Position numbers and translations under genes: made by a program. The notes beneath the pieces were generated by a model, which saw only the letters and a program-made list of their open reading frames with translations, was not told the origin of the DNA and did no database searches. This document shows, piece by piece, positions 25,591 through 40,703 of a stretch of 64,000 nt of DNA. Every line of letters begins with the position of its first letter. The first letter of the stretch is position 1. Source of the stretch: a virus; the IMG/VR virus record IMGVR_UViG_3300028610_002494, positions 47,838 to 111,837 of that record, one strand, 5' to 3'.

Positions 25591-25594
25591 AATT

Positions 25595-25768: not shown

Positions 25769-25780
25769 ACAAAGTTTATA
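25764..25780. promoter_or_regulatory. Dyad repeat variant TATAAAC-AAA-GTTTATA
   Basis: The dyad with AAA in the spacer, overlapping the upstream stop codon and 26 bases before the ATG at 25807. Confidence 0.6.
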
Positions 25781-25806
25781 AAAATTAAAATTAAAGAGGT
25801 GAAAAA

Positions 25807-25974: not shown

Positions 25975-25975
25975 A

Positions 25976-26016
25976 TTTTTTTGTAAGTGTGCCAGACTTC
26001 CTGAGCACCAAAAAAA
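25976..26016 (+). repeat. T-run/hairpin cassette, copy 1
   Basis: T7, GTAAGT, then hairpin GTGCCAG-ACTTC-CTG-a-GCAC, then CAAAAAA. It lies 1 base after the stop codon of one small gene and about 25 bases before the next start. The T-run may end the upstream transcript. Confidence 0.7.
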
Positions 26017-26039
26017 TAAAACTAAAAGAGGTTAAAAAG

Positions 26040-26261
26040 ATGAACTTAAAAAGAGAAATAATCTGTGAATATCTTATAATGTTTGGATGTATTATTATAA
26101 TCGGACTATATATAGGTGGACTCATAACAACAGCTGATTTCTATGTTTCAAATTTCTTAGATTCAACAATAATTATGATTCTTACAATTATAATTTTTAT
26201 GTTGGTATTTGAAAGACATTCACATAGTCTTAAATTATTAGCAGAAAAAGAAATAAAATAA
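26040..26261 (+). CDS. Small two-TM protein
   Basis: A 73-residue protein with two TM segments (IMFGCIIIIGLYIGGLI and IIMILTIIIFMLVF). The start at 26040 follows AGAGGTT; an upstream GTG at 25989 in the same frame lies inside the hairpin cassette and is not used. Not recognised. Confidence 0.55.
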   Translation: MNLKREIICEYLIMFGCIIIIGLYIGGLITTADFYVSNFLDSTIIMILTIIIFMLVFERHSHSLKLLAEKEIK

Positions 26262-26267
26262 TAATTA

Positions 26268-26310
26268 TTTTTTTTTGTAAGTGTGCTGGATTTCCCAAGC
26301 ACCAAAAAAA
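26268..26310 (+). repeat. T-run/hairpin cassette, copy 2
   Basis: T9, GTAAGT, hairpin GTGC-TGG-ATTTC-CCA-a-GCAC, CAAAAAAA. Compared with copy 1 the inner stem changes from CAG/CTG to TGG/CCA on both sides, keeping pairing. Confidence 0.7.
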
Positions 26311-26331
26311 TTAAATTAAAAGAGGTTTAAA

Positions 26332-26637
26332 ATGACTGAATGTGAAAAAAGACTTGAAATCGTGAAAAAATGTTTTACTTATATTATATTACTTGTTTGT
26401 AGTGCTTTCCTTCTAACAGGAACTATATTATTTATCATACAATGGTATTACTATATTCCAAGTGATGCTATAACAGATATAATGATTATGATAGTTATTA
26501 CATGTGTTATTTATACAATGATTCCAACCATATGTTGGGTGATTTGGTATGTAAATGTATATTCCAAAATGTATATTCCTGTTAAAAAAAGCAAATATAC
26601 AGAAATGAAAAAGAAAATAAAAGAAATTGAAAAATAA
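26332..26637 (+). CDS. Small two-TM protein
   Basis: A 101-residue protein with two TM segments (about residues 15-36 and 46-70) and a Lys/Glu-rich tail; AGAGGTTT precedes the ATG. It sits between two hairpin cassettes. Not recognised. Confidence 0.55.
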   Translation: MTECEKRLEIVKKCFTYIILLVCSAFLLTGTILFIIQWYYYIPSDAITDIMIMIVITCVIYTMIPTICWVIWYVNVYSKMYIPVKKSKYTEMKKKIKEIEK

Positions 26638-26641
26638 TATA

Positions 26642-26686
26642 TTTTTTTTGTAAGTGTGTTTAGGTTTCCTGAGCACCAATAAAAAT
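26642..26686 (+). repeat. T-run/hairpin cassette, copy 3
   Basis: T8, GTAAGT, hairpin GTGTTTAGG-TTT-CCTGAGCAC with G-U pairs, CCAATAAAAA. It is placed between 26332 and 26711 genes. Confidence 0.7.
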
Positions 26687-26710
26687 AAAGAAAAGAGTTG
26701 ATAATAAAAT

Positions 26711-26986
26711 ATGGGAAAATTACTGGAAAGATTTATTGATTTCTTTCATTATACACCAATTAAAGACGGTATTAGACAATCCTCTAAAAATATAGAAAGG
26801 AATGAATTAAATATAGAATACACAAATAAAGAAATAAAATCAACTGAACGACAATTATTTTACTTAAACAGTCTGAAAAACCACTTACTGGCAGAAATTG
26901 ATAAACTAAATGAGTGGAAAAAAGTTCTTAGTGATAAATTAGAAGACGAAAATAAAGAAAGAATAGTAGAAAAAAGTTTATTGTAA
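26711..26986 (+). CDS. Coiled-coil hypothetical protein
   Basis: A 91-residue protein: a short hydrophobic/aromatic head then about 60 residues of heptad-like helix (ELNIEYTNKEIKSTERQLFY). Probably oligomeric; not recognised. Confidence 0.5.
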   Translation: MGKLLERFIDFFHYTPIKDGIRQSSKNIERNELNIEYTNKEIKSTERQLFYLNSLKNHLLAEIDKLNEWKKVLSDKLEDENKERIVEKSLL

Positions 26987-27012
26987 AAAAATTATATCCT
27001 GAATACAAAAAA

Positions 27013-27029
27013 TATAAACAAGGTTTATA
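27013..27029. promoter_or_regulatory. Dyad repeat TATAAAC-AAG-GTTTATA
   Basis: A single copy ending 3 bases before the ATG at 27033. Its last 6 bases plus the first codons are duplicated 30 bases downstream. Confidence 0.7.
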
Positions 27030-27032
27030 AAA

Positions 27033-27299
27033 ATGAGTAAAAAAGAAAATAGATTTATAAAAATGAGTAAAAAAGAAAATAAAAAAGAAAAAAAAGAAAG
27101 ATTTTTTTTTAATTTAGAAAATTTAGAAATAGGAGATAATATATCAATGGAACCACTTAAAGTTGGAAGAATTTCTATTCCTATTCCAGAAGAAAATTTA
27201 GAACCACATTTTACTGAATTCGATAAAATTAAGGATGATTTTATTGATGATTTTTTATGGAAAAATTTAACAAATTCAAATAATAAAAAGGAAAAATAA
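27033..27299 (+). CDS. Hypothetical protein with duplicated MSKKEN leader
   Basis: An 88-residue protein starting MSKKENRFIKMSKKENKKEK: the leader and its upstream TTTATAAAA are tandemly duplicated with a 30-base period (ATGs at 27033 and 27063, in frame). The rest is acidic with a PIPEENLEPHFTEFD stretch. Not recognised. Confidence 0.5.
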   Translation: MSKKENRFIKMSKKENKKEKKERFFFNLENLEIGDNISMEPLKVGRISIPIPEENLEPHFTEFDKIKDDFIDDFLWKNLTNSNNKKEK

Positions 27300-27300
27300 A

Positions 27301-27317
27301 TATAAACAAGGTTTATA
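27301..27317. promoter_or_regulatory. Dyad repeat TATAAAC-AAG-GTTTATA
   Basis: A single copy starting at the base after, and partly abutting, the upstream stop and ending 4 bases before the ATG at 27322. Confidence 0.7.
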
Positions 27318-27321
27318 AAAA

Positions 27322-27636
27322 ATGATATTTTTAGGGTTTATTTTAATGATACTTCAAATTTTGGATATTATTACAACAAATATAGGACTAAAAAATGGAT
27401 GTAGAGAAAGAAATCCACTTATGAGAAAAATATATAAAACAAAAGTTCCACTTGGGATGATAATAATATTACAATTAAGTATGAGTATTTTACTTATTTG
27501 GGTTTTATCACTTAATTTTATAATAATAGCTTGGATTGTTTTTGGTCTTAATATTTTTCTGGTTGTTATAGTATCGTTAAATTTAATAAGTATTTATATT
27601 CAAAAAAAATATAATAAAAATGAGTGGTTGAAATGA
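27322..27636 (+). CDS. DUF5658-like small membrane protein
   Basis: A 104-residue protein with three hydrophobic segments and the pattern LDIITTNIGLKNGCRERNPLMR, which is the conserved loop (D...T...G..E.NP) of DUF5658. The function of that family is unknown to me. It overlaps the next gene by 13 bases. Confidence 0.6.
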   Translation: MIFLGFILMILQILDIITTNIGLKNGCRERNPLMRKIYKTKVPLGMIIILQLSMSILLIWVLSLNFIIIAWIVFGLNIFLVVIVSLNLISIYIQKKYNKNEWLK

Positions 27637-27896
27637 GTTGGCAGGAATTTAATGATATATTATTTGAGAAATTAAAAATCGAGAATCTTAAACCTGAATG
27701 GGTTGAGAATGGTTGTATAAAAATAAAAGACAAATATATATCTGTGATTATTAGAGTGTTAGAAGGTTATTTTGACAAGAAAGTAAATGGATTAATGATT
27801 GTTTGGGGATATGATAAAACATATAGGGAAATTGAACTTATAAATTTTACAATAGATGAATTAATAGAAAAAATAAAATTAATGATATTATGGTGA
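27624..27896 (+). CDS. Hypothetical protein, 90 aa
   Basis: A small soluble alpha/beta-looking protein (EFNDILFEKLKIENL..., VIIRVLEGYFDKKVNGLMIVWGYDKTY). It overlaps genes on both sides; not recognised. Confidence 0.5.
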   Translation: MVEMSWQEFNDILFEKLKIENLKPEWVENGCIKIKDKYISVIIRVLEGYFDKKVNGLMIVWGYDKTYREIELINFTIDELIEKIKLMILW

Positions 27897-28129
27897 ATGA
27901 TTATAAAAATGGATGGAAATTAAAAATGAATGATTTGATTTTTGTTGGATTAGTATTTGGTCTTGTTGGTTGGTTATTACATTTTATATTTATTATGACA
28001 GCTATGTTTAGCAAGATAAAATGGTTTATTTGGGTTGATTATAATAAATATCATGAAGGATACTTGGAAGTCATTTTAATCTCAATGGTTATAGGACTTT
28101 ATATAATAATTATAATTTTAGAATTTTAA
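27890..28129 (+). CDS. Small two-TM protein
   Basis: Up to 79 residues with two TM segments (LIFVGLVFGLVGWLLHFIFIMTA and VILISMVIGLYIIIIIL). ATG at 27890 overlaps the upstream gene; the ATG at 27926 is an equally good start. Not recognised. Confidence 0.5.
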   Translation: MVNDYKNGWKLKMNDLIFVGLVFGLVGWLLHFIFIMTAMFSKIKWFIWVDYNKYHEGYLEVILISMVIGLYIIIIILEF

Positions 28130-28139
28130 GAGGATAATA

Positions 28140-28472
28140 ATGAAATTAAACAAAACAGATTTTAACACATTGGATAAACTACTGAACAAAATAGGATTTG
28201 GTTCTTATTATGATCTGATTCAAATGCTAAAAGATACAGCATATAATATTCAACCAAAACTACAAGATAAATTAGAAAAAGAAACAGATTTATTAAAAAT
28301 AGTTAATTTGATTAGTAGATTATCACGTATTCTAAATAAAGAAAATAAAAAAAGTTATTTAACATGTTGTTGTGGTGGAATAGATTTTAAATTATTGAGA
28401 GAAATGTTAGTTTTAGATGACATAACTTCAGTGTGGAAATGCTTAAAATGTGGAAAAATAATAGAGGTTTAA
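28140..28472 (+). CDS. Hypothetical protein with C-terminal zinc ribbon
   Basis: A 110-residue protein: helical N-terminal two thirds, then TCCCGGIDF...WKCLKCGKI, a likely zinc ribbon. Good AGAGGATAAT spacing before the ATG. Confidence 0.55.
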   Translation: MKLNKTDFNTLDKLLNKIGFGSYYDLIQMLKDTAYNIQPKLQDKLEKETDLLKIVNLISRLSRILNKENKKSYLTCCCGGIDFKLLREMLVLDDITSVWKCLKCGKIIEV

Positions 28473-28473
28473 A

Positions 28474-28755
28474 ATGTTGGAAGAATTGCTTAAACGTATA
28501 AATAAATTACGTACTGAGTTATTTTTAGATGTTGACTTAAAAAGATATGAATATTCGAACGATGAACAAAGAGCAGAATTAAGAGAAAAATATAGATTAT
28601 TAAAGGACACAAATTGTTCACGTTGTGGTAAGAATTCAAGATTATTGAAAGTATTCTATGAACATTATAAAAAATACAAATTATTTATGTTTATTTATTA
28701 TAATATACCAAGAGAAATTGATATAAATCGTCTTAGATTATTGAGAGAATGTTAA
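28474..28755 (+). CDS. Hypothetical protein with CxxC
   Basis: A 93-residue helical protein with one CSRCGKNS knuckle. AGAGGTT in the end of the upstream gene serves as ribosome-binding site. Not recognised. Confidence 0.5.
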   Translation: MLEELLKRINKLRTELFLDVDLKRYEYSNDEQRAELREKYRLLKDTNCSRCGKNSRLLKVFYEHYKKYKLFMFIYYNIPREIDINRLRLLREC

Positions 28756-28756
28756 A

Positions 28757-29227
28757 ATGAGTAAAAAAGAAAATAAAAAGAAAGAACTAAAAAAATATTT
28801 TGATAAATGGAAAAATGAAGTAATAAATAATCCAAATTATGATGAACCAACCAAAAAATTTCTGCTCAGTTGTAAAAAAGATCTATATAGTTTGAATAAA
28901 AAAGCACTTAAAAATGGAATAACAATAGAAGAAATTGAAAAAATTGAAAGATATGCAAGTTATTTTTATTCTAAAACTTATGACAATTATCTTATAAGAG
29001 AATATAATGGTTTTGTTGCAGCAGGTATTTTTAAAATTCCTGCAGATCATAAAACTAAAGAAGTTAATCCAATTTTTATTTATGCTTGTGGTCATAATAA
29101 AGAATGGGATGATATTGAAGAACAAATTAATGTAGAACTAACTTTAGGAGAAGCAGAAGATTTAGTTAAATGTATTAATATATGTATAAAAATATTTAAA
29201 GAAAAAGAAAAAAATAAAAATGAGTAA
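28757..29227 (+). CDS. MSKKEN-leader hypothetical protein, 156 aa
   Basis: Starts MSKKENKKKEL, shared with several unrelated neighbours, then an alpha/beta domain (YLIREYNGFVAAGIFKIPADH, NPIFIYACGHNKEWDDIEEQINVELTLGEAEDLV). No catalytic motif recognised. It overlaps the next gene by 8 bases. Confidence 0.55.
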   Translation: MSKKENKKKELKKYFDKWKNEVINNPNYDEPTKKFLLSCKKDLYSLNKKALKNGITIEEIEKIERYASYFYSKTYDNYLIREYNGFVAAGIFKIPADHKTKEVNPIFIYACGHNKEWDDIEEQINVELTLGEAEDLVKCINICIKIFKEKEKNKNE

Positions 29228-29513
29228 AAAAGAACAACATATAGGAATTACTGAAGAAGATATAGAATTCTACAAGAAGTATCATCAATCTCGTATTGAT
29301 TCTGAAAAAAATGAAGAAAATATAATAGATGGAGAAGAATGTCCATATTGTAATGAACCAATAGATCCAATAGATATTATGGGAGACTCAGATTGGGATG
29401 ACCAACAATATAATTGGTATGAAGCTGAATGTGGTAAATGTGGCAAACAATACAAGATTAGACAATATGATGTAGAAACAATAAGAAGTTTTGAAACTAA
29501 AAAAGATGATTAA
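29220..29513 (+). CDS. MSKKE-leader zinc-ribbon protein
   Basis: A 97-residue protein with CPYCNEPIDPIDI...ECGKCGKQYKI, a classic zinc ribbon, behind an MSKKEQH start. Acidic overall; may bind proteins or nucleic acids. Confidence 0.6.
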   Translation: MSKKEQHIGITEEDIEFYKKYHQSRIDSEKNEENIIDGEECPYCNEPIDPIDIMGDSDWDDQQYNWYEAECGKCGKQYKIRQYDVETIRSFETKKDD

Positions 29514-29515
29514 AA

Positions 29516-29764
29516 ATGATTCATAAACCACAATCAATCAAAGAAATATTAGGAAGAATAGAAGTCATGGCTAAATTATATGAAGCTTGGAATGTTCTAA
29601 CTCTATTATATATTAAAACATTAAAAATTGGTAAAGATGATTGGGGAATGGACAGAAATAGAGAAATGTTAATATTTAGAGCTAAAGAATTCATACCAAA
29701 AATAAGAAATTTAATAGAACAAGTCATAGAATTATTTAAAAAAGATATAAAAGAAATGGTATAA
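29516..29764 (+). CDS. Helical hypothetical protein
   Basis: An 82-residue, all-helical-looking protein with amphipathic repeats (IEVMAKLYEAWNVLTLLYIKTLKI). It starts 2 bases after the upstream stop. Not recognised. Confidence 0.5.
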   Translation: MIHKPQSIKEILGRIEVMAKLYEAWNVLTLLYIKTLKIGKDDWGMDRNREMLIFRAKEFIPKIRNLIEQVIELFKKDIKEMV

Positions 29765-29766
29765 AA

Positions 29767-29979
29767 ATGAGAAAACTAAAAACAATACAAGAACCTGAAA
29801 AGAAATGTTATTATTGTTATTTCTTTCCATTTGATCAAGAATTTTCAACTGAAATGATTAAACGATGTGCAGAAAATTGGCTAAAAGCTGAAGACTGTCC
29901 TAATTGGAAACCATATAATGTATATTCATATATGAAAAACCGAAGGAAATTCAAAAAAGTTAAAATGATAAAAGGTTGA
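29767..29979 (+). CDS. Small Cys-rich protein
   Basis: A 70-residue protein with KCYYCYFF...KRCAENW...DCPNWKPY, four cysteines that could bind one metal ion, and a basic tail. Not recognised. Confidence 0.5.
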   Translation: MRKLKTIQEPEKKCYYCYFFPFDQEFSTEMIKRCAENWLKAEDCPNWKPYNVYSYMKNRRKFKKVKMIKG

Positions 29980-29983
29980 AAAT

Positions 29984-30133
29984 ATGATTGAAATTATAGA
30001 TAAAATTAATTATACCTGTAAAACAGTTGAAGATGATATTGATATGGTTATACATCCATTAAATAAAGAAACCACCTTTCTAAAAGATGTTGAATTAGAA
30101 GGACACCAAATTATAGGTGTAATATTTAAATAA
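29984..30133 (+). CDS. 49-residue hypothetical protein
   Basis: A small beta-rich protein (ETTFLKDVELEGHQIIGVIFK at the end). AAAGGTTGAAA precedes the ATG. Not recognised. Confidence 0.45.
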   Translation: MIEIIDKINYTCKTVEDDIDMVIHPLNKETTFLKDVELEGHQIIGVIFK

Positions 30134-30157
30134 AAATAAAAAAAGAGGTTAAAAAAT

Positions 30158-30376
30158 ATGAACCTAAAAAATTGGTTGAAGAAACACTACAAATCCTTAA
30201 TATGTTTGATAATTAATAGTGTTATACTATTAATTACTATAATATTAGCAAATCTTGTTTTTGCATATATTGTATTTGGAATATTTCTAATTATTACTAT
30301 ATATTTTTTGATTAGTGTTATAATCCTTGAATACCAAATAAAAAAATCAAATAAGGAAATTGTTGAAAATGAGTAA
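30158..30376 (+). CDS. Small two-TM protein, NWLK family
   Basis: A 72-residue protein starting MNLKNWLKKHYKS with two TM segments and a charged tail; paralogue of the 22882 protein. AGAGGTT precedes the ATG. It overlaps the next gene by 8 bases. Confidence 0.6.
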   Translation: MNLKNWLKKHYKSLICLIINSVILLITIILANLVFAYIVFGIFLIITIYFLISVIILEYQIKKSNKEIVENE

Positions 30377-30620
30377 AAAAGAAACAATTAACCATCCAAA
30401 ACATTATAACATAGGAATATTTGAAGTTATAGATATTATTGAAGACTGGGATCTTGGATTCCACCTTGGAAATGCTGTAAAATACATTGCCAGAGCTAAA
30501 CATAAAGATAATGAAGAAGAAGATATAAAGAAAGCTATATGGTATTTGAAAAGATACTTAAAAAGAGAAAAATATAAAAAAATAAGAAAACTAATTAAAG
30601 AGGATTTAGATAATGTCTAA
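30369..30620 (+). CDS. DUF3310 family protein
   Basis: An 83-residue protein matching DUF3310, a family frequent in phages: NHPKHYNIGIFEVIDIIEDWDLGFHLGNAVKYIARA, then DIKKAIWYLKRYLKRE. The family is sometimes called a nucleotide kinase, without a kinase motif visible here. The MSKKE start at 30369 is preferred over a TTG at 30360. Confidence 0.85.
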   Translation: MSKKETINHPKHYNIGIFEVIDIIEDWDLGFHLGNAVKYIARAKHKDNEEEDIKKAIWYLKRYLKREKYKKIRKLIKEDLDNV

Positions 30621-30834
30621 AAAAGAAATACAAAATTTATCAAATCAAATTGACAAGCTTTCACCAATGGAATTTTCTAAGTTATGCCTAAAGGTTATTA
30701 AAAAAATAATGAGAAGGCAAAATAGTGAAACAATTGAAAATTCAACTGAAAAAAATGATAAAAGGGTTTTAATTGACCTAATGATTAAAAATGATATAAA
30801 AATAGATGAAAAAGAGGAAAAAATTGATTCTTAA
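30613..30834 (+). CDS. MSKKE-leader small helical protein
   Basis: A 73-residue protein starting MSKKEIQNLSNQIDKLSP, charged and helical. Overlaps the neighbours at both ends; its tail holds AAGAGG, the next gene's ribosome-binding site. Not recognised. Confidence 0.5.
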   Translation: MSKKEIQNLSNQIDKLSPMEFSKLCLKVIKKIMRRQNSETIENSTEKNDKRVLIDLMIKNDIKIDEKEEKIDS

Positions 30835-31543
30835 ATTGTCAAAACAGTTTATTGAGGAAATTACTCCATTTGAAACAATTTATTGTCAACAATCAGGTGG
30901 AATTCATTCTTCTGCTATTGCATATTTATTAAAAGATTATGGTTTTAAAAATGTTTCACTCATTCATAACTTAACATATTTAGAATATCCAGAATGTTTG
31001 AATCTAATTCAAAGAATTATTTATGATACAGATTATTCTTATAATTTGATATATCCTAATCTTAAAGGAAAGAGAATGTCTGAAATTATGAAAGAATCAT
31101 TTTTAGCAATACCAAAAATAAAAAAAGGACTAAAAGATGGAACAATTAAATCAGGAAACGTCCGAGACCATATAACTTGTTGTAAATTCCTTAAAAAGAC
31201 TTCAAGTAGAATATGGTACACTAAAAACATTAATAAAGAGACCAGTGTTGTTATTATGGCAATAACACCATATGAAAGTAAGAATAGAAAGAGACATCTT
31301 ACTGAATTAAGAAGAAAAAGGACTTATCTTAGACTACACAAAAAACACGGAAATGTATGGCATGCATATCCATTTAGAGATATTTATAGTGGATATCATT
31401 TTTATAAATATTTAATGAGTAAAAATGTAGTTCCAATACATAGTAGTTGTCAAATCTGTCCTATGAGAATAATTTTTAATATGACTTATCCAGATGATAA
31501 GACACTTTTGTATTACAGAAAACTAAAATCAGCTGGAGATTGA
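30824..31543 (+). CDS. PAPS reductase-like PP-loop protein
   Basis: A 239-residue adenine nucleotide alpha-hydrolase-like protein. QQSGGIHSSAIAYLL is the PP-loop (SGGxxSS) that binds ATP or PAPS. ITCCKFLKK and SCQICP resemble the paired cysteines of CysH/DndC-type Fe-S enzymes. It may reduce PAPS or carry sulfur to a nucleic acid or small molecule. TTG at 30824 has GAGG 6 bases upstream and is preferred over the ATG at 30806. Confidence 0.75.
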   Translation: MILKLSKQFIEEITPFETIYCQQSGGIHSSAIAYLLKDYGFKNVSLIHNLTYLEYPECLNLIQRIIYDTDYSYNLIYPNLKGKRMSEIMKESFLAIPKIKKGLKDGTIKSGNVRDHITCCKFLKKTSSRIWYTKNINKETSVVIMAITPYESKNRKRHLTELRRKRTYLRLHKKHGNVWHAYPFRDIYSGYHFYKYLMSKNVVPIHSSCQICPMRIIFNMTYPDDKTLLYYRKLKSAGD

Positions 31544-31590
31544 AATTAAATCAAAAAACTTACCTGAAGAATGAAAAAATGTGAAAAATA

Positions 31591-31764
31591 ATGGAAGGCA
31601 TAAGAAAACCAAGAATAAATAATAAATTAAGGGATGTAATGATAACACTTAATAAACTTAATAAAGAAGGAACAATTAATAGTTTAAGTGTAATTCCAAG
31701 TGGTATAAATGCTTGTGCTAATTATGATTATATTTCGTTTAAAATACCAAAAAATAATATATAA
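31591..31764 (+). CDS. 57-residue hypothetical protein
   Basis: A small protein with RKPRINNKLRDVMITLNKLN (basic helix) then a strand with SVIPSGINACANYDYISF. No strong ribosome-binding site. Its stop overlaps the first tandem dyad. Not recognised. Confidence 0.4.
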   Translation: MEGIRKPRINNKLRDVMITLNKLNKEGTINSLSVIPSGINACANYDYISFKIPKNNI

Positions 31765-31791
31765 ACCTTGTTTATATAAACCTTGTTTATA
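31760..31791. promoter_or_regulatory. Tandem dyad repeat TATAAAC-CTT-GTTTATA x2
   Basis: Two copies (31760-31776 and 31775-31791), 15 bases apart, in the CTT orientation, about 20 bases upstream of the promoter at 31811. The dyad plus promoter is almost duplicated at 52217-52304. Confidence 0.75.
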
Positions 31792-31810
31792 CAATCCTAT
31801 TATAATAAAA

Positions 31811-31847
31811 ATATTTATATTTAAAAGTAGTTATTAAATAATTAAGG
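31811..31847 (+). promoter_or_regulatory. Promoter with TTAAAAGTAGTTATTAAATAATTAAGG
   Basis: TATA-like TTATATTTAAAAG followed by TAGTTATTAAATAATTAAGG; nearly identical to 52268-52304. It drives the gene at 31886 and probably the operon through 34887. Confidence 0.6.
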
Positions 31848-31885
31848 AAAAATAGTTAAATTAAAATATAAATAGAGTTGAAAAA

Positions 31886-32173
31886 ATGTTTGCAATAGAA
31901 CATGAAACAGATTGGATAGAAGGAGAATGTATTTCTATAAGTTTAAAAGAAGAAGAAACATTTCTTGGTAATCATAATGAAGATTTTAAATGGATCGCAG
32001 AAAAAACACTTCATTATGGTGGTGATACTATTGATAAAACATATTATAGAATCACAAAGAATGGAATATATATTAAGTTCTTCAGAAAAGAAGATGAAGG
32101 AATATATGGTATCCATTTTGTTCCACACGATAATATAATATTATTTGAAGTATATGAAAAAAAGAATAACTAA
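31886..32173 (+). CDS. Hypothetical protein, 95 aa
   Basis: The first gene behind a duplicated operator/promoter. Acidic, beta-rich (ECISISLKEEE, YRITKNGIYIKFFRKEDEGIYGIHFVPHDNIILFEVY). Its place directly behind the tandem dyad makes it a candidate for the regulated target. Not recognised. Confidence 0.55.
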   Translation: MFAIEHETDWIEGECISISLKEEETFLGNHNEDFKWIAEKTLHYGGDTIDKTYYRITKNGIYIKFFRKEDEGIYGIHFVPHDNIILFEVYEKKNN

Positions 32174-32185
32174 AAAAATGATAAA

Positions 32186-33082
32186 ATGTCAAAAAACACA
32201 TTTAAAAACACATTTAAAAATAGGAAAAAGATAAGAAATCTTCAACAAAATAAAAGAAAACCTAAGAAATTAGTTTTTAATCCTAAAAAATATAAATTCA
32301 AGTGTTTACAATGTGGAAATTGTTGTAGTACACTTTTAGATAATGCAATGATTAGTCCTATTCCATCTTTCAATCATAAAGGAATTTTTGTAAAAAAACC
32401 AAAAAATGGAGTTATTATATTTCAGTTTGAGATTGATAAAATAAAACGAAATCTTACTCAAGAACAATTATCAAAAATTAATTATGGAACTACTATTTTT
32501 TTGAAAGATTATCCTGTTGGGTTTGTTGCTACATATCAAATAGAATACAACAAATATGGTCATTGTAGTTTTTTTGATTTCAGGACAAAAAAATGTAATA
32601 TCTACAATTTTCGACCTTTTTCATGCAGACTACATCCTCTTTTTTATTCAGGTAATTTTACGTTTACTATGGGTGGTGGCGACTTAAGTAGATGCAAATC
32701 AATTCAATCAGAAATTGCACACCAAAATTCTATAAATATTGAAAATATAGATATAACCCATTTTGAGTTTTCAGATAATGAATTAATACATTCCTTTCCT
32801 TCTTTTACACAAGAAAAATTAAAGATAGTACAAATAGACTTAGTTGGACATATATTTTTAGATTATTTTTTTGATATTATTATATTAGATCCAATCCAAT
32901 TAACTCCAAATAGAATAGAAATATATAAACTTTTAGATTTTAAAAATTTTACAAAATGGTTTAAAATTAATATAAAAAATAAAAAATTATTAGAAAGATT
33001 AAATAAATACCAAGAAGAATTAAATGATTTCAACCAAACAGGAGATATATTTAATAAAAAATATTTAAAAATAATTAAATAA
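32186..33082 (+). CDS. YkgJ-like CxxCxxCC cluster protein
   Basis: A 298-residue protein with the YkgJ/Zn-Fe cluster signature: KCLQCGNCCSTLL, then HCSFFDFRTKKCNIYNFRPFSCRLHPLF. The cysteines are thought to bind an Fe-S or zinc centre; YkgJ-type proteins occur beside modification enzymes. The N-terminus contains a short tandem duplication (KNTFKNTFKN). The C-terminal half is unassigned. Confidence 0.75.
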   Translation: MSKNTFKNTFKNRKKIRNLQQNKRKPKKLVFNPKKYKFKCLQCGNCCSTLLDNAMISPIPSFNHKGIFVKKPKNGVIIFQFEIDKIKRNLTQEQLSKINYGTTIFLKDYPVGFVATYQIEYNKYGHCSFFDFRTKKCNIYNFRPFSCRLHPLFYSGNFTFTMGGGDLSRCKSIQSEIAHQNSINIENIDITHFEFSDNELIHSFPSFTQEKLKIVQIDLVGHIFLDYFFDIIILDPIQLTPNRIEIYKLLDFKNFTKWFKINIKNKKLLERLNKYQEELNDFNQTGDIFNKKYLKIIK

Positions 33083-33093
33083 AAGGTATAAAA

Positions 33094-34887
33094 ATGAGTA
33101 AAAGATTAAGAAAATATATAATAACATCTAAAGAAGAAGAAAAATTAATAAAAAGGGCACTGAAAAAAAGAGAAGAAAAAATAATTGATTATTATTCACA
33201 ACAAAAAGAAAATGAAGATTTAAACGAAATAGAAGATGATATTTTAGCTTATTTTGATGTTGATGATGAATGGTATCATTGTAAAGGATATAATTATTAT
33301 GGTGAAACAGAAGGATTATTCTTGAATTCTTGGAAATTATTAGTTGATAGTTATTTAAAATCTGATTTAATAGAAGATTTTCTTTATATCCTTGAAGATC
33401 TTTCAGTTGGTATAATTTGTGGATGGACTAAAGAAACAAAAAAATTTGATGAAATAATAAAAAAAATAAACAAGTATTCTATAGAAGTTCATAATATTGA
33501 TATTAATGAATGTTTAGAAGAAATTGGTAAAACAAAAAGAAAACAATATAAAATAGATAAAAAGAACTATGATGAAAGAAAAGAAGAACAAAGAAAACAT
33601 GAAGAAAAAATACTAAAAGAATCAGAAATTGATTTTAGTAAGTTTGATAAAAAAGACTTTGAATTGTGGAACAAAATAAAAAAAAGATTACATCCTTCTA
33701 ATTATTTAAGACTAAATGAAGAAGTTTATAGAAAAAAAACCAATAAAGAAATACAGGAAATATTTAACATAATCAAAGAAAATGAATTAAAAAATGACAA
33801 TAAATCAAAAGAACAAGTTTTAAAAGAAAAAAATTATTGGAAATTAGATGTATATGATTTAGAAAGATATAATGGGATTTCTTTACAACAATTAACTAAA
33901 ATTGAGATTAGTTTTTTAACATTTAATGGAATTATATTATGGAAAGATGTATTATTATTCTTAAAAGATGAAATTGATGCATCGGATGGATTTCTTGACG
34001 ATGAATTTCATACAGGTGGTTATTCTTATTCTCATGTTGGTCAAGAAGGTAATGAATTACAAGAATTAACATCAATTGGTGTAATTAAACCAAGTCTTGA
34101 TTATGATTGTAATTTAGGAAATAAACACTATACACATGGATGCAAACATATGTATTATTTTCATTTAACAATAGAAGGAAAAAGATTTATTGATTTTATG
34201 AATTGGCATAATGAACACTATACTTCAGAAGAAATAAATATCATAAAAAATGAATCATTAAATTATTTTTATTATGATCCTGAATTTAAAGAGATATATC
34301 AAGAATATCTACAATTAAGAAAAAAAGAAGAATATAAAATTGAAGAAAATGAAGAAATATTACAAATAAGTAAAATAAAAAAATTAGGTTATTCTAAAAG
34401 TTATCCTAAAGAAAAAATCTATAAATCTGATAACTGGAAAATAAGATCAGAAGAAATTAGAAAAAGAGATTCACAAATAGACTTATTAAGGTTATTTGAT
34501 GATGGTATTATAACAAAAAGTGAACCTATTCACCATATATTTCCTATAAAGTTTTTTCCTGAAATAGCTTTAGAACCATATAATTTAATAGCATTAGATA
34601 TATCTCATCATAAAAGTATTTATAAGGATTACAGAAATCCTTTAGATTTATTTAAAAGAATGATTGAAATACATAAAATTTGGAGAAATCATAAGAAAAA
34701 ATATGGGGAAAAAATATTAATGAAAATAATTTCTATTATTTCAAGACAGTATGAAATAACAACCAACCTTGAAAAAATAAAAACTAAAAAGAAAAATTAT
34801 ACAAAAGAATTAGGAACACTAACAAAAAAGATTGATGTTCTTGAAAAAAAAACAATAAATAATATTAAGAAAATCTTACCTATATAA
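33094..34887 (+). CDS. Large protein with C-terminal HNH domain
   Basis: A 597-residue protein. The first 400 residues are charged and unrecognised, with a middle region GYSYSHVGQEGNELQELTSIGVI followed by HYTHGCKHMYYFHLT. From about residue 450, WKIRSEEIRKRD...PIHHIFPIKFF...EPYNLIALDISHHKSIY is an HNH nuclease core, and a coiled-coil ends the protein. It may be a homing-type or defence nuclease. Confidence 0.65.
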   Translation: MSKRLRKYIITSKEEEKLIKRALKKREEKIIDYYSQQKENEDLNEIEDDILAYFDVDDEWYHCKGYNYYGETEGLFLNSWKLLVDSYLKSDLIEDFLYILEDLSVGIICGWTKETKKFDEIIKKINKYSIEVHNIDINECLEEIGKTKRKQYKIDKKNYDERKEEQRKHEEKILKESEIDFSKFDKKDFELWNKIKKRLHPSNYLRLNEEVYRKKTNKEIQEIFNIIKENELKNDNKSKEQVLKEKNYWKLDVYDLERYNGISLQQLTKIEISFLTFNGIILWKDVLLFLKDEIDASDGFLDDEFHTGGYSYSHVGQEGNELQELTSIGVIKPSLDYDCNLGNKHYTHGCKHMYYFHLTIEGKRFIDFMNWHNEHYTSEEINIIKNESLNYFYYDPEFKEIYQEYLQLRKKEEYKIEENEEILQISKIKKLGYSKSYPKEKIYKSDNWKIRSEEIRKRDSQIDLLRLFDDGIITKSEPIHHIFPIKFFPEIALEPYNLIALDISHHKSIYKDYRNPLDLFKRMIEIHKIWRNHKKKYGEKILMKIISIISRQYEITTNLEKIKTKKKNYTKELGTLTKKIDVLEKKTINNIKKILPI

Positions 34888-34914
34888 ACCTTGTTTATAT
34901 AAACTCTGTTTATA
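34883..34914. promoter_or_regulatory. Tandem dyad repeat, CTT and TCT spacers
   Basis: Two copies (34883-34899 with CTT, 34898-34914 with TCT) overlapping the upstream stop codon. TTTTAAA at 34922-34928 is placed like a TATA box for a leaderless start at 34954. Confidence 0.7.
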
Positions 34915-34953
34915 ATTATCCTTTTAAACCCATAAGATAATATATATTTATCT

Positions 34954-37032
34954 ATGTCTATTTTTAGTCAACTTAAAAAAATTAATCCACTTAAATTGGA
35001 TGAATATTTAGAAGACTCTTGGTTGTTGAGTTATGAAGAAGGAATTAATTTAACTCATTATTATGTCAAAAAACTCATTAAAAACATCCATGTTGATTCC
35101 CATTTAAAATTAAGATGGTTGATACTTAACGATAAATATAAAAAAGCTTTTTTTAGTTCTACAAGAATCCATTTATTCCGAACCCATACAGGTTCAGGGA
35201 AAACTGTCACAAGTGTGATGTGGGTTAAATTTTTGACACAATTAAGTTCCAAAATTGAAGGATTTGTGGTGCTTTCTGCTGAATATGATCATGGCACTAC
35301 TGAGATAGAAAAAATTATAATAAAACACGGAAATCAGGTTGATTATATTAGGTTTGAAGGAAAAAATAGGTTATGTACTCAACGACATATCAAAATAAAC
35401 AAAAAAGGAACAACAATTGAGACTTTAATGAAAAATGGAATCTCAATCAAGAGATATTGTGAAAATGATTGTCCAGAATTAAAAACCTGTATATATAAAT
35501 GTAATTGTGCTCAAGTTATAGCACCAATAGAAAAAGGTGGTATTAAGAATTGGATTGGAGTCCAACACCAAATTGGTCATTTCTTACCAATTTTTATGTA
35601 TCATGTTGGAAATATTTTCCTTGTTATAGACGAGAATTTTTCAGACGCAATTAAGGAACACCACAAATATGGAGTACCAATACTAAAAGAAAATATTAAG
35701 TTTTTAAATATGATATTAAAAAATATAAATCCAATAGTTGAAGAGAATTATTGGTATTTTGTGAATGAATTTAAAAAGCTTTTAACTAATTTTAAACAAT
35801 ATTTATTTAAACACTTAACAGAACTTGATTATGAATTAATTGGAGATATTTTAGACAATATAGACGATTCTAAAGGAATAGATAATCTTTATACTGATAA
35901 ACTAAATGAACAAGCATTTGATTATGTAAAAAATGGTAAAATTAAACCATTTAAATTCATTTTTGGAGAAATCTGTAATTTCATAGATAACTATGAGGAA
36001 TTATTAAACTCTAATTATGATGATATTAATAACTGGATGAGAGCGAGTTTCTATAAAAAACAAGATAAGTATGAGATAACATTTTTGTACTATGATAAAT
36101 ATAAACTGGATGCTTTGTTTAACAGAGATAATTTAACCAAATTGATAATTAATGATGCCACTGCTAATAAGATTGAATTAAGCTATTTAATTGGTGATAA
36201 AGAACCAGTAATTGAACACAATGAAAATTGGATGTATGAGAATTGTGAGTTTCATCAACTTAATAAAAGAGTTAATGTACAAAAAATTAATGCCAAAAAT
36301 AATAGAGAATATAAGAAATTTGCTCATTACCCTAAAACATCATTTATGTTTGAAAAGACTTTTTTTTATTTGATTGGAGATCTAAAAGTAATCTTAGAGC
36401 GACACAAGGATGAACCTGTGCTTGTTGTGGCAAGAGAAATAGAAGGAAAAGATCTCAAATTCAATGGTGGAATAAAACTTTCTGATTATATTCAAACTTT
36501 AGGATATAATAATGTTATTTTTGAGGATTATCCACTCAAAGCAACTAATGAATATTCTGATATTAATGTAGTGGTATTATTAGGTAAACCAGAATTGCCA
36601 ACAGCAGTAATTAAAAGACAATCCACTTTAATAGGTATGGAACATAATGAATATAGAGAAATGTACTCTAAGACTAATATGGTTCAAGCAATAGGACGTA
36701 TTATGCGTGGAAATGAACTAAAATATGTTTATATTCTTACTGGGTTTGATTTGAAGTTGAATAGACCAGTAAAAAGCTATAAAAGTCATACAGATTTGAG
36801 AAATAGTCTTTTGGCTGAGATTAAAGCTATTAAAATAAAAAAAATTGAGATCTTTAGATATAATATAATATCAACCTATATAAAAAAACACAAATATATC
36901 ACAATAAAAAAATGTGAAGAACTGTTTAAGATATCAAACTATAAAGCAAGTATAATCCTTAAAAATTTTGAAAAGCAAGGAAAACTTAAATCCAAGAAAA
37001 TTGAGAGAGGAAGGTTTGTTTTCACATTTTAG
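34954..37032 (+). CDS. SF2 (XPD-like) helicase with Cys cluster and C-terminal winged helix
   Basis: A 692-residue ATPase. Walker A THTGSGKT (about residues 77-84), Walker B-like FLVIDENF (about 223-230), motif VI MVQAIGRIMRG (about 576). Between motifs I and II are LCTQRH and RYCENDCPELKTCIYKC, which recall the Fe-S ligands of XPD/Rad3 helicases. The last 65 residues (ITIKKCEELFKISNYKASIILKNFEKQGKL) look like a winged helix. It is probably a replicative or transcription-linked helicase. The start appears leaderless, since no ribosome-binding site is seen. Confidence 0.75.
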   Translation: MSIFSQLKKINPLKLDEYLEDSWLLSYEEGINLTHYYVKKLIKNIHVDSHLKLRWLILNDKYKKAFFSSTRIHLFRTHTGSGKTVTSVMWVKFLTQLSSKIEGFVVLSAEYDHGTTEIEKIIIKHGNQVDYIRFEGKNRLCTQRHIKINKKGTTIETLMKNGISIKRYCENDCPELKTCIYKCNCAQVIAPIEKGGIKNWIGVQHQIGHFLPIFMYHVGNIFLVIDENFSDAIKEHHKYGVPILKENIKFLNMILKNINPIVEENYWYFVNEFKKLLTNFKQYLFKHLTELDYELIGDILDNIDDSKGIDNLYTDKLNEQAFDYVKNGKIKPFKFIFGEICNFIDNYEELLNSNYDDINNWMRASFYKKQDKYEITFLYYDKYKLDALFNRDNLTKLIINDATANKIELSYLIGDKEPVIEHNENWMYENCEFHQLNKRVNVQKINAKNNREYKKFAHYPKTSFMFEKTFFYLIGDLKVILERHKDEPVLVVAREIEGKDLKFNGGIKLSDYIQTLGYNNVIFEDYPLKATNEYSDINVVVLLGKPELPTAVIKRQSTLIGMEHNEYREMYSKTNMVQAIGRIMRGNELKYVYILTGFDLKLNRPVKSYKSHTDLRNSLLAEIKAIKIKKIEIFRYNIISTYIKKHKYITIKKCEELFKISNYKASIILKNFEKQGKLKSKKIERGRFVFTF

Positions 37033-37065
37033 AAAAAATTAAATTATATTTTAATACTTCCAACC

Positions 37066-37171
37066 TCTAAAACCCAGTTTTAAATTTTTTCTCCTCTCTA
37101 TAAAATTATTATATTCTTTTCTCTTTACTATTTTGTAGAGAGAACAACTTCTTTTAAAACTGGGTTTTAGA
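37066..37171. repeat. Nested inverted repeat
   Basis: The outer arms TCTAAAACCCAGTTTTAAA and TTTAAAACTGGGTTTTAGA are exact complements (19 bp). Inner arms CTCTCTATAAAA and TTTTGTAGAGAG pair with one G-U. The outer arms contain the only GGG/CCC runs for hundreds of bases around, so this is not just AT richness. Confidence 0.75.
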
Positions 37172-37565
37172 AACTTCTATTCATATCAAGTGATACCCAA
37201 AAAATCAAAAAAATTATTTTTTCCATTATCTGGTGTACATTTAGTATTTTATTTATATTGTTCTGGTATCTTGTTTCATAATTTAAGTGTTCTAATTGTG
37301 TAAACAAAACTAAACAAGGTTTAATTTTTTTAAAAAAAATAATTATTTTTTATGATTATTTTTTGATAGAAAACCATAGTAGAAGATTTAAGTACATAAT
37401 AGAACATATAAACATTGCAGACACAATAATTTTTCAAAAGTTGGTGTAAAGCTTGTAAAAAAAAATGTATGTAAAAAATTAAGAAAAACGACATTTTAAA
37501 CGATTTTTTATTTTTTTTAGAATATTTATATTTTTAAAGAAATGCATTTCACAAAAGTATATATG

Positions 37566-37591
37566 TATAAATAGTCTTTATAGAATTAAGG
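37566..37591 (+). promoter_or_regulatory. Archaeal promoter TATAAATAGTCTTTATAGAATTAAGG
   Basis: TATAAATAG with the shared TCTTTA and ATTAAG downstream block. CAAAAGTATATATG upstream also resembles the region before 46056. It drives the GHKL fusion gene. Confidence 0.7.
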
Positions 37592-37637
37592 AAAAAAAAT
37601 TTAAAAAATAACCTAAAAAACTAAGGAGTTGGTTTAA

Positions 37638-39194
37638 ATGGGAGAAAGAACAGATTTTGTAATGGCACAGGAACTTTTAAAGAGTGTTATTTTTGATCAA
37701 GCAGGCAGTGTTATTAAAGCTATTGAAGAACTATTCCAAAATAGTATTGATGCTGGTGCTACTAAAATAGAAATTATAATAAATAAGGAAGGAATGATAT
37801 TTTCAGATAATGGAAAAGGAATGAACAAAAAAGAAATTAATACTTATTTTAGACAATTTGGAAATTCAGCAAAAGCAGGAGACTCAACCAAAATAGGTAA
37901 ATATGGAATTGGAAGAGGTCAAGTATTTGCTCAAGGATGGAATAGGTGGAGAACTCAAACTTTTATGATGAGAACAAATTGTAAACAGAGTTTATCATAC
38001 AGACTAAAAGAAAGATTAATACATTTAAATGGAATGAGTGTTTATGTCATGTTCTATGAAAAAATGGATAATTGGACATATGACAGAACTGTTTCATTAA
38101 TTAAGGAATATGTTATTCCTAAAAGAATTGAAATAACTATAAATGGATCAAAATTCACTGAGGAAGATGCTGGAATAACAAGAATTGATGATTATAGTAA
38201 TGAGTCTTTTGAAGTATTTGAAAGTTGTTTGTATGAAAGACGAATTTTTGCCCAAGCATTATTTGTAAAGAAGTTTAATACTACAACTAAATACAATATT
38301 AATTGTAAAGGAAAAATGAAGTTAAATACCGCAAGAAATGATTTACACGAAGACAGGAAATCAACTAAAGAACTTTATGATTTAATTGCAAGAATTGAAA
38401 GAGAAGAACTTTTGAAAGCTAAACGATTTGATGCAACAACAGGAAAACAAATTCTTAAATACATAAGGAATGGAAAGCTAAACATAATTGATTTTATGGA
38501 TAAAAAAATAATTGAATTAGCTGATGGAGAATTGGTTTCGATAAAAGATATTAATGGTAAAAAAGTGATGTTTGGTGAAAAGAATGATACTTCTGATCGA
38601 GCAATTCAAGCAGGATATATAGTAGTTAATAACAATTTTAAATGGGTTCTAACTGAATTAAGTAAACAGAAAAAAGTTGGATATACAAGAGATTATAGAA
38701 GTCCTGCTGAAGTAGTTCCAAAAGGTTATCGTAAACAAATAGAAGAAGCAAGACTTTTTAAAACTCACGGTAAAAAAGCTTTATTACATTGGTATTTAGC
38801 AAAAGAAATGAACAAAAGAATATTTGGAGATGAAAGAGAACTTTCAATTGGTTCTTCTGATATTGCAGAAGCTTGGACTGATGGACATTATAATATAACA
38901 CTAAATGCAAGTATGTTTAAGAAAAGAGACAAACGAGGAGTGGTTGTTATGAATGTTTTTCATGTTCTTTGTCATGAGTATGCTCACGAGAATGATGATA
39001 CAAATGAAACAAGTCATGATGGAAACTTTTACAAACGATACTATGAATTGGTTGAACAAAAGAAGAGAAGAATTGGTGATTTTGTTGTTTTTGTTGGTCT
39101 TAGAGAAATTGAGAGAAATTATAAACAAGATATTGAAGATGATATCTTTAGTGCAAAATTATTAAAAACTAATAGAAAAAAAAGAAGTGGTTAA
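37638..39194 (+). CDS. GHKL ATPase fused to HExxH metalloprotease-like domain
   Basis: A 518-residue protein. The N-terminal GHKL (Hsp90/MutL/topo VI B type) ATPase shows the N box ELFQNSIDAGATKI (about 34-47), G1 box FSDNGKGM (about 56-63) and GKYGIGRG (about 86-93). The C-terminal part, after an unassigned middle, has VLCHEYAHENDD (HExxH, about 445) and SHDGNFYKRYYEL, like a SprT-type zinc protease. It may use ATP-driven dimer closure to control proteolysis. It has its own promoter after the structured region. Confidence 0.75.
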   Translation: MGERTDFVMAQELLKSVIFDQAGSVIKAIEELFQNSIDAGATKIEIIINKEGMIFSDNGKGMNKKEINTYFRQFGNSAKAGDSTKIGKYGIGRGQVFAQGWNRWRTQTFMMRTNCKQSLSYRLKERLIHLNGMSVYVMFYEKMDNWTYDRTVSLIKEYVIPKRIEITINGSKFTEEDAGITRIDDYSNESFEVFESCLYERRIFAQALFVKKFNTTTKYNINCKGKMKLNTARNDLHEDRKSTKELYDLIARIEREELLKAKRFDATTGKQILKYIRNGKLNIIDFMDKKIIELADGELVSIKDINGKKVMFGEKNDTSDRAIQAGYIVVNNNFKWVLTELSKQKKVGYTRDYRSPAEVVPKGYRKQIEEARLFKTHGKKALLHWYLAKEMNKRIFGDERELSIGSSDIAEAWTDGHYNITLNASMFKKRDKRGVVVMNVFHVLCHEYAHENDDTNETSHDGNFYKRYYELVEQKKRRIGDFVVFVGLREIERNYKQDIEDDIFSAKLLKTNRKKRSG

Positions 39195-39197
39195 AAA

Positions 39198-39422
39198 ATG
39201 TTATACAAATTATTTATTGATGATATGAGAAATGCTATTTCTCATGCTTATTTAACTCGAAGTGTTCAAGAGAATATTAAAATAAAGATTAGAGCTATTG
39301 AATCTTGTTTTAATACTTGGGTTAATCGATTAAATAAATCTGAGAAAAGAGTATATAAGGAAGACATAAATTCTTTCAGAGAGGATTTAAAAGCAATACT
39401 AAAAGAAATTTATAAAAACTAA
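39198..39422 (+). CDS. Small helical hypothetical protein
   Basis: A 74-residue, charged helical protein (RAIESCFNTWVNRLNKSEKRV). It follows the GHKL gene by 3 bases and precedes a hairpin cassette. Not recognised. Confidence 0.5.
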   Translation: MLYKLFIDDMRNAISHAYLTRSVQENIKIKIRAIESCFNTWVNRLNKSEKRVYKEDINSFREDLKAILKEIYKN

Positions 39423-39430
39423 TTGATTTA

Positions 39431-39472
39431 TTTTTTTGTAAGTGTGTTTAGGTTTCCTTAACACCAATAAAA
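39431..39472 (+). repeat. T-run/hairpin cassette, copy 4
   Basis: T7, GTAAGT, hairpin GTGTTTAGG-TTT-CCTTAACAC, CAATAAAAA. Here the right arm reads AACAC against GTGTT, fully paired, where other copies have AGCAC. This supports selection on pairing. Confidence 0.7.
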
Positions 39473-39501
39473 ATAAAATTACAAAAAGAAGGTAAATAAA
39501 A

Positions 39502-39675
39502 ATGAATTTAACAGAAAAAGGAAAAGAACAAACAAAATTAATCTCGAAAATGTTAGCTGATATTAGAACCGAATTTATGAAAGCTTTTCTTAATTTTGAA
39601 GAAAAGGATATTATCCTAATTCTTGATATAAAATATATGAAACAGAGTTTTATGAGATGGGTAAATAAAAAATAA
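39502..39675 (+). CDS. 57-residue hypothetical protein
   Basis: A small helical protein (KLISKMLADIRTEFMKAFLNF). GAAGGTAAATAAAA precedes the ATG. Not recognised. Confidence 0.5.
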   Translation: MNLTEKGKEQTKLISKMLADIRTEFMKAFLNFEEKDIILILDIKYMKQSFMRWVNKK

Positions 39676-39689
39676 GAGGTTAAAAGAGA

Positions 39690-40082
39690 ATGGAAAATAT
39701 TAGACCAAGAAATGAAATAAGAGCTTTATGTCCACGGTGTGGAGGATCATATAGTGGATACCCTGCTTTAAGTCGTCGTGATAACAAAAGTAAGATATGT
39801 TCTGATTGTGGAAACGAAGAAGCGATATTTGATCTTAAGATGCATCTATGGGATGATGAAAAAGAAAAGAAAGAATTAATAATAAAAGAAAAGAAGTGGT
39901 TAGAAATGTCTAAAAAAAGTGAAGTAATTATATGGGAAGGATTTAAGTGGACAATGGAAGAAGGAGAAACTGTGGATGATGTTATAGATAAACTTAATGA
40001 TGGTGCAATAACTTCCTATGCAAACCATTTCATAAAAATTACTGATTTAAATGGAATTGTACTTAAAGAAATAAATATTTAA
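39690..40082 (+). CDS. Zinc ribbon fused to EGET-type small domain
   Basis: A 130-residue protein. RALCPRCGGSYSGYPALSRR...ICSDCGNEEA is a zinc ribbon. The second half, from MSKKSEVIIWEGFKWTMEEGET, matches the free-standing protein at 25595 and even retains the MSKK leader internally, so two genes may have fused. Confidence 0.6.
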   Translation: MENIRPRNEIRALCPRCGGSYSGYPALSRRDNKSKICSDCGNEEAIFDLKMHLWDDEKEKKELIIKEKKWLEMSKKSEVIIWEGFKWTMEEGETVDDVIDKLNDGAITSYANHFIKITDLNGIVLKEINI

Positions 40083-40128
40083 TTTTTTTTATTGTTAGTG
40101 TGCCAGATTTCCTGAGCACCAATAAAAA
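40083..40128 (+). repeat. T-run/hairpin cassette, copy 5
   Basis: T8, ATTGTTAGT, hairpin GTGCCAG-ATTTC-CTG-a-GCAC, CAATAAAAA, starting directly after the stop codon at 40082. Confidence 0.7.
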
Positions 40129-40150
40129 TAAAGAAAAGAGTTGATTAAAA

Positions 40151-40387
40151 ATGGTTAAAAAAGAGACTATGGAAAATTATAAAAAAGAACTTTTTGATTT
40201 AGCATTACATCTTGAAAATTGGTTAAATGGAATTGTTATTGAATCTTGGGATGCAGAAAATTTAAGAAATAGAGTAGTTAGTAAGATTCGTCTTTTTAAA
40301 CAAGATGGACATACTGATGTATTTCATCCTGATATTGATCGTGGACAAGTAGTAGAAAGAATGAAGGAACAGAATGTTAAATCATAA
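40151..40387 (+). CDS. Hypothetical protein, 78 aa
   Basis: Starts MVKKETMENYKKEL; soluble, mostly helical with a HTDVFHPDIDRGQV stretch. It sits between two hairpin cassettes. Not recognised. Confidence 0.5.
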   Translation: MVKKETMENYKKELFDLALHLENWLNGIVIESWDAENLRNRVVSKIRLFKQDGHTDVFHPDIDRGQVVERMKEQNVKS

Positions 40388-40400
40388 ATATAAAAATAAA

Positions 40401-40446
40401 TTTTTTATTGTAAGTGTGTTTAGGTTTCCTGAGCACCAATAAAAAT
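40401..40446 (+). repeat. T-run/hairpin cassette, copy 6
   Basis: T6, ATTGTAAGT, hairpin GTGTTTAGG-TTT-CCTGAGCAC, CAATAAAAA; same inner sequence as copy 3. Confidence 0.7.
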
Positions 40447-40471
40447 AAAAAACTCAAAAGAGGTGTAAATT

Positions 40472-40690: not shown

Positions 40691-40703
40691 AAGAGAATAA
40701 AAA

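Follow-up and report, generated by a model that had tools for sequence, protein, structure and literature searches.

The closest idea to the element described here appears to be that of the PeSL cassettes of T4-type phages, which Arbiol et al. 2010 reportedly described as mobile regulatory cassettes pairing an early promoter with a stem-loop. Our element is a bulged hairpin, followed by an A-rich spacer and a Shine-Dalgarno (SD) sequence, that recurs between tiny genes in a 64,000-nucleotide (nt) stretch of the IMG/VR virus record IMGVR_UViG_3300028610_002494; this whole stretch is called the window and covers G000:47838-111837 of the 111,837-bp record. As with PeSL, a large tailed virus carries a short regulatory stem-loop again and again between small accessory genes that are unrelated, which seems to help modules to be shuffled. 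Unlike PeSL, with its early promoter, the element contains no recognised promoter motif and the conserved part behind its hairpin is a ribosome-binding site, a comparison to be read with Asgard promoters being uncharacterised here and two repeated motifs lying outside the element junctions. Two more differences are its covarying apical helix and its presence in genomes of the lineage that probably hosts the virus.

Integron attC sites, including those of Asgard archaea (PMC9668308), are likewise imperfect inverted repeats placed just past each stop codon where small genes stand in same-strand arrays, with structure conserved above sequence, whereas the present element lacks R′/R″ cores, is about 45 nt long, carries a one-sided 5-nt bulge and has no integron integrase found with it, the recombinase scored being that of the virus. 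Leader and intercistronic RNA motifs, such as those of ribosomal-protein genes, share the covarying hairpin at a fixed distance before an SD and start codon; here, however, there is no Rfam match, the downstream genes are unrelated and the element is common to a virus. Repetitive extragenic palindromic (REP) sequences and IS200-IS605-type terminal hairpins are also bulged and intergenic, in contrast to which our element has its orientation and spacing fixed to genes, a low copy number and no recognised transposase ends.

We favour, with a probability of roughly 0.58, the reading that hairpin, A-rich spacer and SD together form a cis-acting intercistronic RNA leader module, which a probable Asgard virus and Lokiarchaeota have exchanged. 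The element keeps its location and orientation relative to genes, evolves by compensatory changes with a bias towards the sense strand, is present in both the virus and Lokiarchaeota, and is re-used before unrelated genes. An RNA leader is preferred because the distance to the SD and start is fixed, pairing is biased to the sense strand, orientation matches that of the gene, and the bulge and loop are conserved in a hairpin that otherwise varies freely. Of the features that mark such leaders in general, those seen in the sequence are the conserved covarying structure and its spacing to the start; its presence in transcribed RNA is predicted.

Structure and copies of the element

Minimum-energy folds and alignment give a bulged hairpin with an outer helix of about 8-10 bp, in which the A-run CAA(T/A)AAAAA is the partner of a T-arm ending in TTG. 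On the 5′ side only, a bulge UAAGU (variants UUAGU and CAAGU) is followed by GUG(C/U) paired with (G/A)CAC, then by a variable apical helix of 3-5 bp and the loop RYUUC. C-type copies read GTGC-CAG..CTG-A-GCAC with a bulged A, and T-type copies read GTGTTTAG..CTGAGCAC, the extra base pairing with the A that is bulged in the C-type. The sequence GUGUG allows two pairing registers, and a 3-nt bulge UAA is equally possible; the UAA register is favoured because host copies replace GUG/CAC by GAG/CTC (L076) or GA/UC (L085, L086). The outer helix reads TTGTGTTG/CAACAGAA in the diverged virus copy L007 and TTTAAATTG/CAATTTAAA in the host copy L035/L069, and some copies carry A-U where others have U-A.

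Two known folds were set aside. A bulge-helix-bulge needs two 3-nt bulges on opposite strands 4 bp apart, a layout different from that of the element, in which a single 5-nt bulge lies on the 5′ side and the opposite side has one bulged A in C-type copies and none in T-type copies. A kink-turn, with its 3-nt bulge and tandem sheared G.A/A.G pairs, does not agree with the Watson-Crick GUG/CAC that follows the bulge in nearly all copies.

The copies in the virus record, scored with R1, the covariance model built from the six window copies, are as follows.

Copy 1, 25974-26018, + strand: C-type; outer helix TTTTTTTG/CAAAAAAA, bulge TAAGT, GTGC-CAG, loop ACTTC, CTG-A-GCAC; 67.2 bits
Copy 2, 26268-26312, + strand: C-type, apical TGG/CCA; 70.1 bits
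Copy 3, 26641-26686, + strand: T-type, GTGTTTAGG/CCTGAGCAC; 68.9 bits
Copy 4, 39429-39474, + strand: T-type, 3′ side CCTTAACAC; 66.7 bits
Copy 5, 40085-40129, + strand: C-type, bulge TTAGT, A-U pair in the outer helix; 71.2 bits
Copy 6, 40401-40446, + strand: T-type; 70.7 bits
Copy outside the window, L008:4909-4954 = G000:44509, + strand: 70 bits
Diverged copy outside the window, L007:6266-6311 = G000:26066, + strand: 53 bits

An initial annotation of the window had listed six copies, each shortly after a stop codon and before a new ribosome-binding site. All six were found again at their coordinates on the + strand, and every virus copy does have a stop shortly 5′ and an SD and start 3′; the count was too low for the record as a whole, which holds eight by R1 and by the later models R2 and R3. 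Across the whole record the six training copies score 67-71 bits with R1 and the next-best match after the eight copies only about 20 bits, while R2 and R3 each recover exactly eight, all on the + strand, which is the coding strand. The core pattern occurs six times on the + strand of the window, not at all on the - strand and not at all in 30 Markov-simulated windows.

Compensatory evolution and the folding strand

The same annotation had taken the changing but still paired hairpins as a sign of selection on structure, and this is borne out by a covariation test on 21 virus and host copies, aligned by sequence with MAFFT and compared with shuffles and slid-partner controls. In 88% of cells the named structure is paired, a figure biased towards pairing because the copies were gathered with a structure-aware model, which nonetheless did not dictate the apical variation. 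Pairing is kept amid sequence change: shuffles yield 11.3 ± 2.5 doubly changed cells where the real alignment has 27, and its covariation score of 0.269 compares with 0.132 when shuffled (0/500). All measures collapse once the partner is slid by 1-3 columns. Variation is strongest in the apical pairs (CAG/CTG, TGG/CCA, CTG/CAG, CTC/GAG, CAA/TTG), and host copies add compensatory changes in both helices. A covariance search had been named as the point on which the structural argument could fail, and since it gave further structured copies, two in the record and 19 places in hosts, that objection falls away.

Mismatches on the sense strand comprise 22 G.U against 6 A.C, and the mRNA-sense strand thus folds better than its complement. 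The mean fold z is -2.9 for the + strand and -1.9 for the reverse complement.

Occurrence in Lokiarchaeota and novelty

A pattern scan of the genomes of 84,980 prokaryote species returned six matches, and those valid under a covariance model lie only in two Lokiarchaeota metagenome-assembled genomes (MAGs), CSMAG_1226 and 9R3_44, at 62.5 and 55.6 bits. The matches in Staphylococcus, Bacteroidetes, Bacillales and Thermosyntropha all scored below 23 bits and were rejected. Covariance searches of the phylum's 228 genomes found the element in 8 genomes with R1, in 9 with R2 and at 19 places in 9 genomes with R3, and 219 of the 228 Asgard genomes gave no match; identity as Lokiarchaeota is certain by record title for the two MAGs, the other carriers being members of the 228-genome set searched. 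The copy in genome G130 was detected by R2 before its inclusion in any model. When window positions 22001-42000 were compared as DNA with the 228 genomes, the top match was the element and leader of copy 6, at G001:C54 (90% over about 70 nt); most of the leading matches were elements and the remainder mostly AT-rich noise.

Host genomes hold one to four copies each. Where both genes are clear, the spacing to stop and start is as in the virus; most copies have an SD and start, and an upstream open reading frame (ORF) ends nearby in 11 of the 18 scored. At L084 the upstream ORF and the element overlap at the ORF's 3′ end, with the distance to the downstream start kept. Some host copies adjoin genes for a type II/IV secretion ATPase or a peptidase M20, and one, by our own reading of the sequence, lies beside the gene for an isopropylmalate dehydratase small subunit. 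Because such neighbours are ordinary cellular genes, misbinned virus contigs cannot explain all host copies; they, or other MAG contamination, may account for some. Contig G115:C16 carries an array of three elements with small same-strand genes.

Three host copies lie directly or one gene upstream of RmuC genes that are 86-89% identical (L049:13613-14539, L057:7228-8142 and L058:9790-10704), and the element is absent upstream of RmuC homologues at 56-73% identity. RmuC is tied to short inverted repeats in E. coli, and a functional link between hairpin and RmuC is worth a look. At L050:8380-8642 the hairpin and leader (...AAAGAGGTTAAAACATG) are joined to an internal 3′ fragment of TnpB (KHEKYAGKRISRGLF...NADVNGA), whose gene is unbroken across the junction point in other genomes. 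The module can therefore join foreign sequence at its start-codon side, its leader here being fused to the middle of TnpB.

Beyond this virus and these genomes the element was not encountered. Rfam gave no match at the gathering threshold or at E<=0.5 for the window, for window positions 25700-40600 or for L050 8100-10100, and none of 50,697 phage records contained it. Strict and loose DNA-pattern scans of IMG/VR gave no credible copy outside this record, one of these scans returning zero matches. The pattern matches that did appear were rejected as chance, with best covariance scores of 19.5 bits (R1) and 31 bits (R3), and eight were dismissed by eye on fold and coding context, with no model score (L064, for example, is coding sequence). 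We found no description of it in the literature on Lokiarchaeota RNA motifs. We regard the element as previously uncatalogued; its kind, the intercistronic regulatory stem-loop module, is known, and its sharing between virus and host is unusual.

Genomic context and re-use of the leader

In the virus, the outer helix has one foot 8-46 nt past the upstream stop; from its other foot it is 29-43 nt to the next start, and the SD lies in this interval. The genome is compact, 58 of 98 called junctions measuring 30 nt or less, and the element junctions span 65-84 nt. Wherever a clear gene follows a copy, hairpin and gene point the same way. The leader and the genes concerned, in window coordinates, are as follows.

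26010-26037, + strand: A-rich spacer and SD, AAAAGAGGTT, 3′ of copy 1; equivalent leaders lie behind copies 2-6
26041-26261, + strand: tiny gene between copies 1 and 2; hydrophobic protein, unrelated to the other flanking genes
26332-26637, + strand: tiny gene between copies 2 and 3; 101 amino acids (aa), hydrophobic, no Pfam match
26711-26986, + strand: gene after copy 3; 91 aa, no Pfam match
39504-39675, + strand: gene after copy 4; 57 aa
40151-40387, + strand: gene between copies 5 and 6; 78 aa, no Pfam match
40472-40690, + strand: gene after copy 6; 72 aa, no Pfam match

Genes flanking different copies are mutually unrelated. Over the 29 nt that begin at the hairpin foot and take in the SD, copies 3 and 5 are identical, and they share neither hairpin type nor related genes, from which it follows that the re-used unit is hairpin, spacer and SD together. 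Two paralogous tiny genes (25595-25768 and 39907-40082, 44% identity over 55 aa) are followed, one by a palindrome and the other by copy 5, so the spacer has moved independently of the gene.

That palindrome is a near-perfect 17-bp sequence, TATAAACAAGGTTTATA (TATAAAC, 3 bases, GTTTATA), frequently in tandem pairs or with a start codon 1-6 nt behind it, and our guess is that it serves as an operator or promoter site of the virus.

17-bp palindrome sites: 10583, 10598, 22354, 24269, 25764, 27013, 27301, 31760, 31775, 34883, 34898, 52217, 52232

A further repeated upstream motif, TATAAATAGTCTTTA, also written ATGTATAAATAGTCTTTA(T/C)A, occurs in longer intergenic regions at 37566, 40918 and 46056 and is, again as a guess, probably a promoter. 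Both motifs occur outside the element junctions, and the copies sit within gene runs; with these guessed promoter-like sequences elsewhere, the copies look operon-internal.

Proposed mechanism and alternative explanations

We tentatively propose that the module acts within a polycistronic mRNA, where it would sit between one stop codon and the next start. A putative host factor, either a processing nuclease or an RNA-binding protein, would recognise the folded RNA through the conserved bulge and loop and could set the stability or translation of the downstream cistron, by control of processing, stability or initiation. The module would spread by recombination and be exchanged between the host lineage and the virus, which may use its eight copies to supply tiny operon-internal accessory genes with leaders of their own. 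Several points weigh against this proposal. A leader function is deduced from sequence, fold and context, and the host factor is putative. The downstream genes have no function in common, two host copies (L073, L085) have no clear downstream gene, and a third (L074) follows a gene and has no SD after it, none of which would be expected of a leader pure and simple. Moreover, a folded single DNA strand would give equal covariation and the G.T bias.

This last point leads to the reading of the element as a structure-recognised DNA recombination site, resembling integron attC and belonging to a different system, in which the + strand would fold as single-stranded DNA and a recombinase would join gene cassettes. 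Several features are consistent with such a site: the virus and G115:C16 both hold arrays in which each tiny same-strand gene is delimited by a single element, hairpins follow stop codons among small same-strand ORFs in 8/8 virus copies, the folded strand covaries with its unpaired bases conserved, and the virus encodes a 217-aa Xer-like tyrosine recombinase. The reported enrichment of integrons in Asgard archaea (PMC9668308) fits as well. However, the attC cores RYYYAAC (R″, 5′) and GTTRRRY (R′, 3′) are present in 0/27 copies, and the virus recombinase scores 29.8 bits against a cut-off of 265 bits for integron integrase (TIGR02249), host genomes not having been searched for one. The arrays of virus and host have no gene in common, and homology between copies runs through the SD, with no crossover end inside the hairpin. 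We consider a recombination site unlikely, though deserving of attention, and its more specific form, a so far unrecognised, attC-independent Asgard cassette system in which virus and host would exchange small accessory genes, with folded single-stranded DNA and the Xer-like recombinase as the means, is rather less probable still. The initial annotation had suggested a mobile or recombination cassette as one possibility; recurrence between unrelated genes and in hosts agrees with it, while the missing attC cores do not. Distinctly improbable, too, is a small non-autonomous mobile repeat, of the kind of REP sequences or miniature inverted-repeat transposable elements, scattered between genes with no role for the host gene. 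Such a repeat would be expected beside unrelated genes, would explain its absence before the more distant RmuC homologues and would fit the fusion to an internal TnpB fragment at L050, but orientation and start-codon spacing are fixed, host genomes hold only a few copies, no target-site duplications or paired ends were seen, and apical helices that have diverged and still pair imply long maintenance.

Archaeal termination uses T-runs, and the mechanism first put forward for the element was a T-run terminator of the upstream gene coupled to a protected 5′ end of the next transcript. A run of T5-T9 does lie within about 20 nt of the stop in most copies. The T-run is, however, the 5′ strand of the covarying outer helix, pairing with the A-run, and it is absent from host copies L069 and L084; being paired and not constant, it lends termination no support. 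The gene runs, in addition, have no recognisable promoter motif between their members, and termination after each tiny gene would need a promoter at every junction. We therefore set a very low probability on this mechanism as a whole, though the element may yet protect a new 5′ end. A bacterial-type intrinsic terminator, which needs a GC-rich hairpin and then a T-run, was likewise set aside, as on the sense strand the T-run precedes the hairpin and an A-run follows it.

To our knowledge, almost nothing is known of gene regulation in Asgard archaea, which are kin to the eukaryotes' ancestor, or of the viral use of host machinery there. If the leader reading is true, the virus inserts accessory genes into operons by re-using an intercistronic leader of host type; if the recombination site is true, the element would belong to a new gene-capture system. 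In practical terms, the covariance model is a handle with which further Asgard viruses and host links may be flagged, and the element, as a defined RNA (or DNA), could be used as bait to fish for the protein recognising it.

The virus and its probable host

The family-B DNA polymerase of the virus has as its best match by E-value, among the phages listed, that of Halorubrum tailed virus 27 (25% identity, E=4e-29), and the virus also encodes a replication-factor-C-like clamp loader, an XPG/FEN1-type nuclease, a DEAD-box helicase and a topoisomerase IA. The virus looks archaeal on account of this polymerase match and this set of proteins. Neither the DNA polymerase nor the topoisomerase has close relatives in IMG/VR; two large proteins had no match in the phage collection, and the one of 437 aa had none in the Asgard genomes either. 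As these searches gave no close kin, the probable assignment to an Asgard or Lokiarchaeota host is drawn mainly from the shared element.

The Xer-like tyrosine recombinase (window 19580-20233, 217 aa) shows the R/K/H/R/H/Y residues by eye and has no N-terminal arm-binding domain. The ORFs of the virus further include an amino acid:DNA transferase-like protein (PF18724), a dUTPase, DNA methylases and radical-SAM proteins, a set which suggests that the viral DNA is hypermodified. At the far end of the window, an open frame of at least 2994 aa (55018-63999) runs off the end of the record; it contains five internal repeats spaced by 126 nt near 60.5-61.3 kb, and its product is probably a giant virion or adhesin protein.

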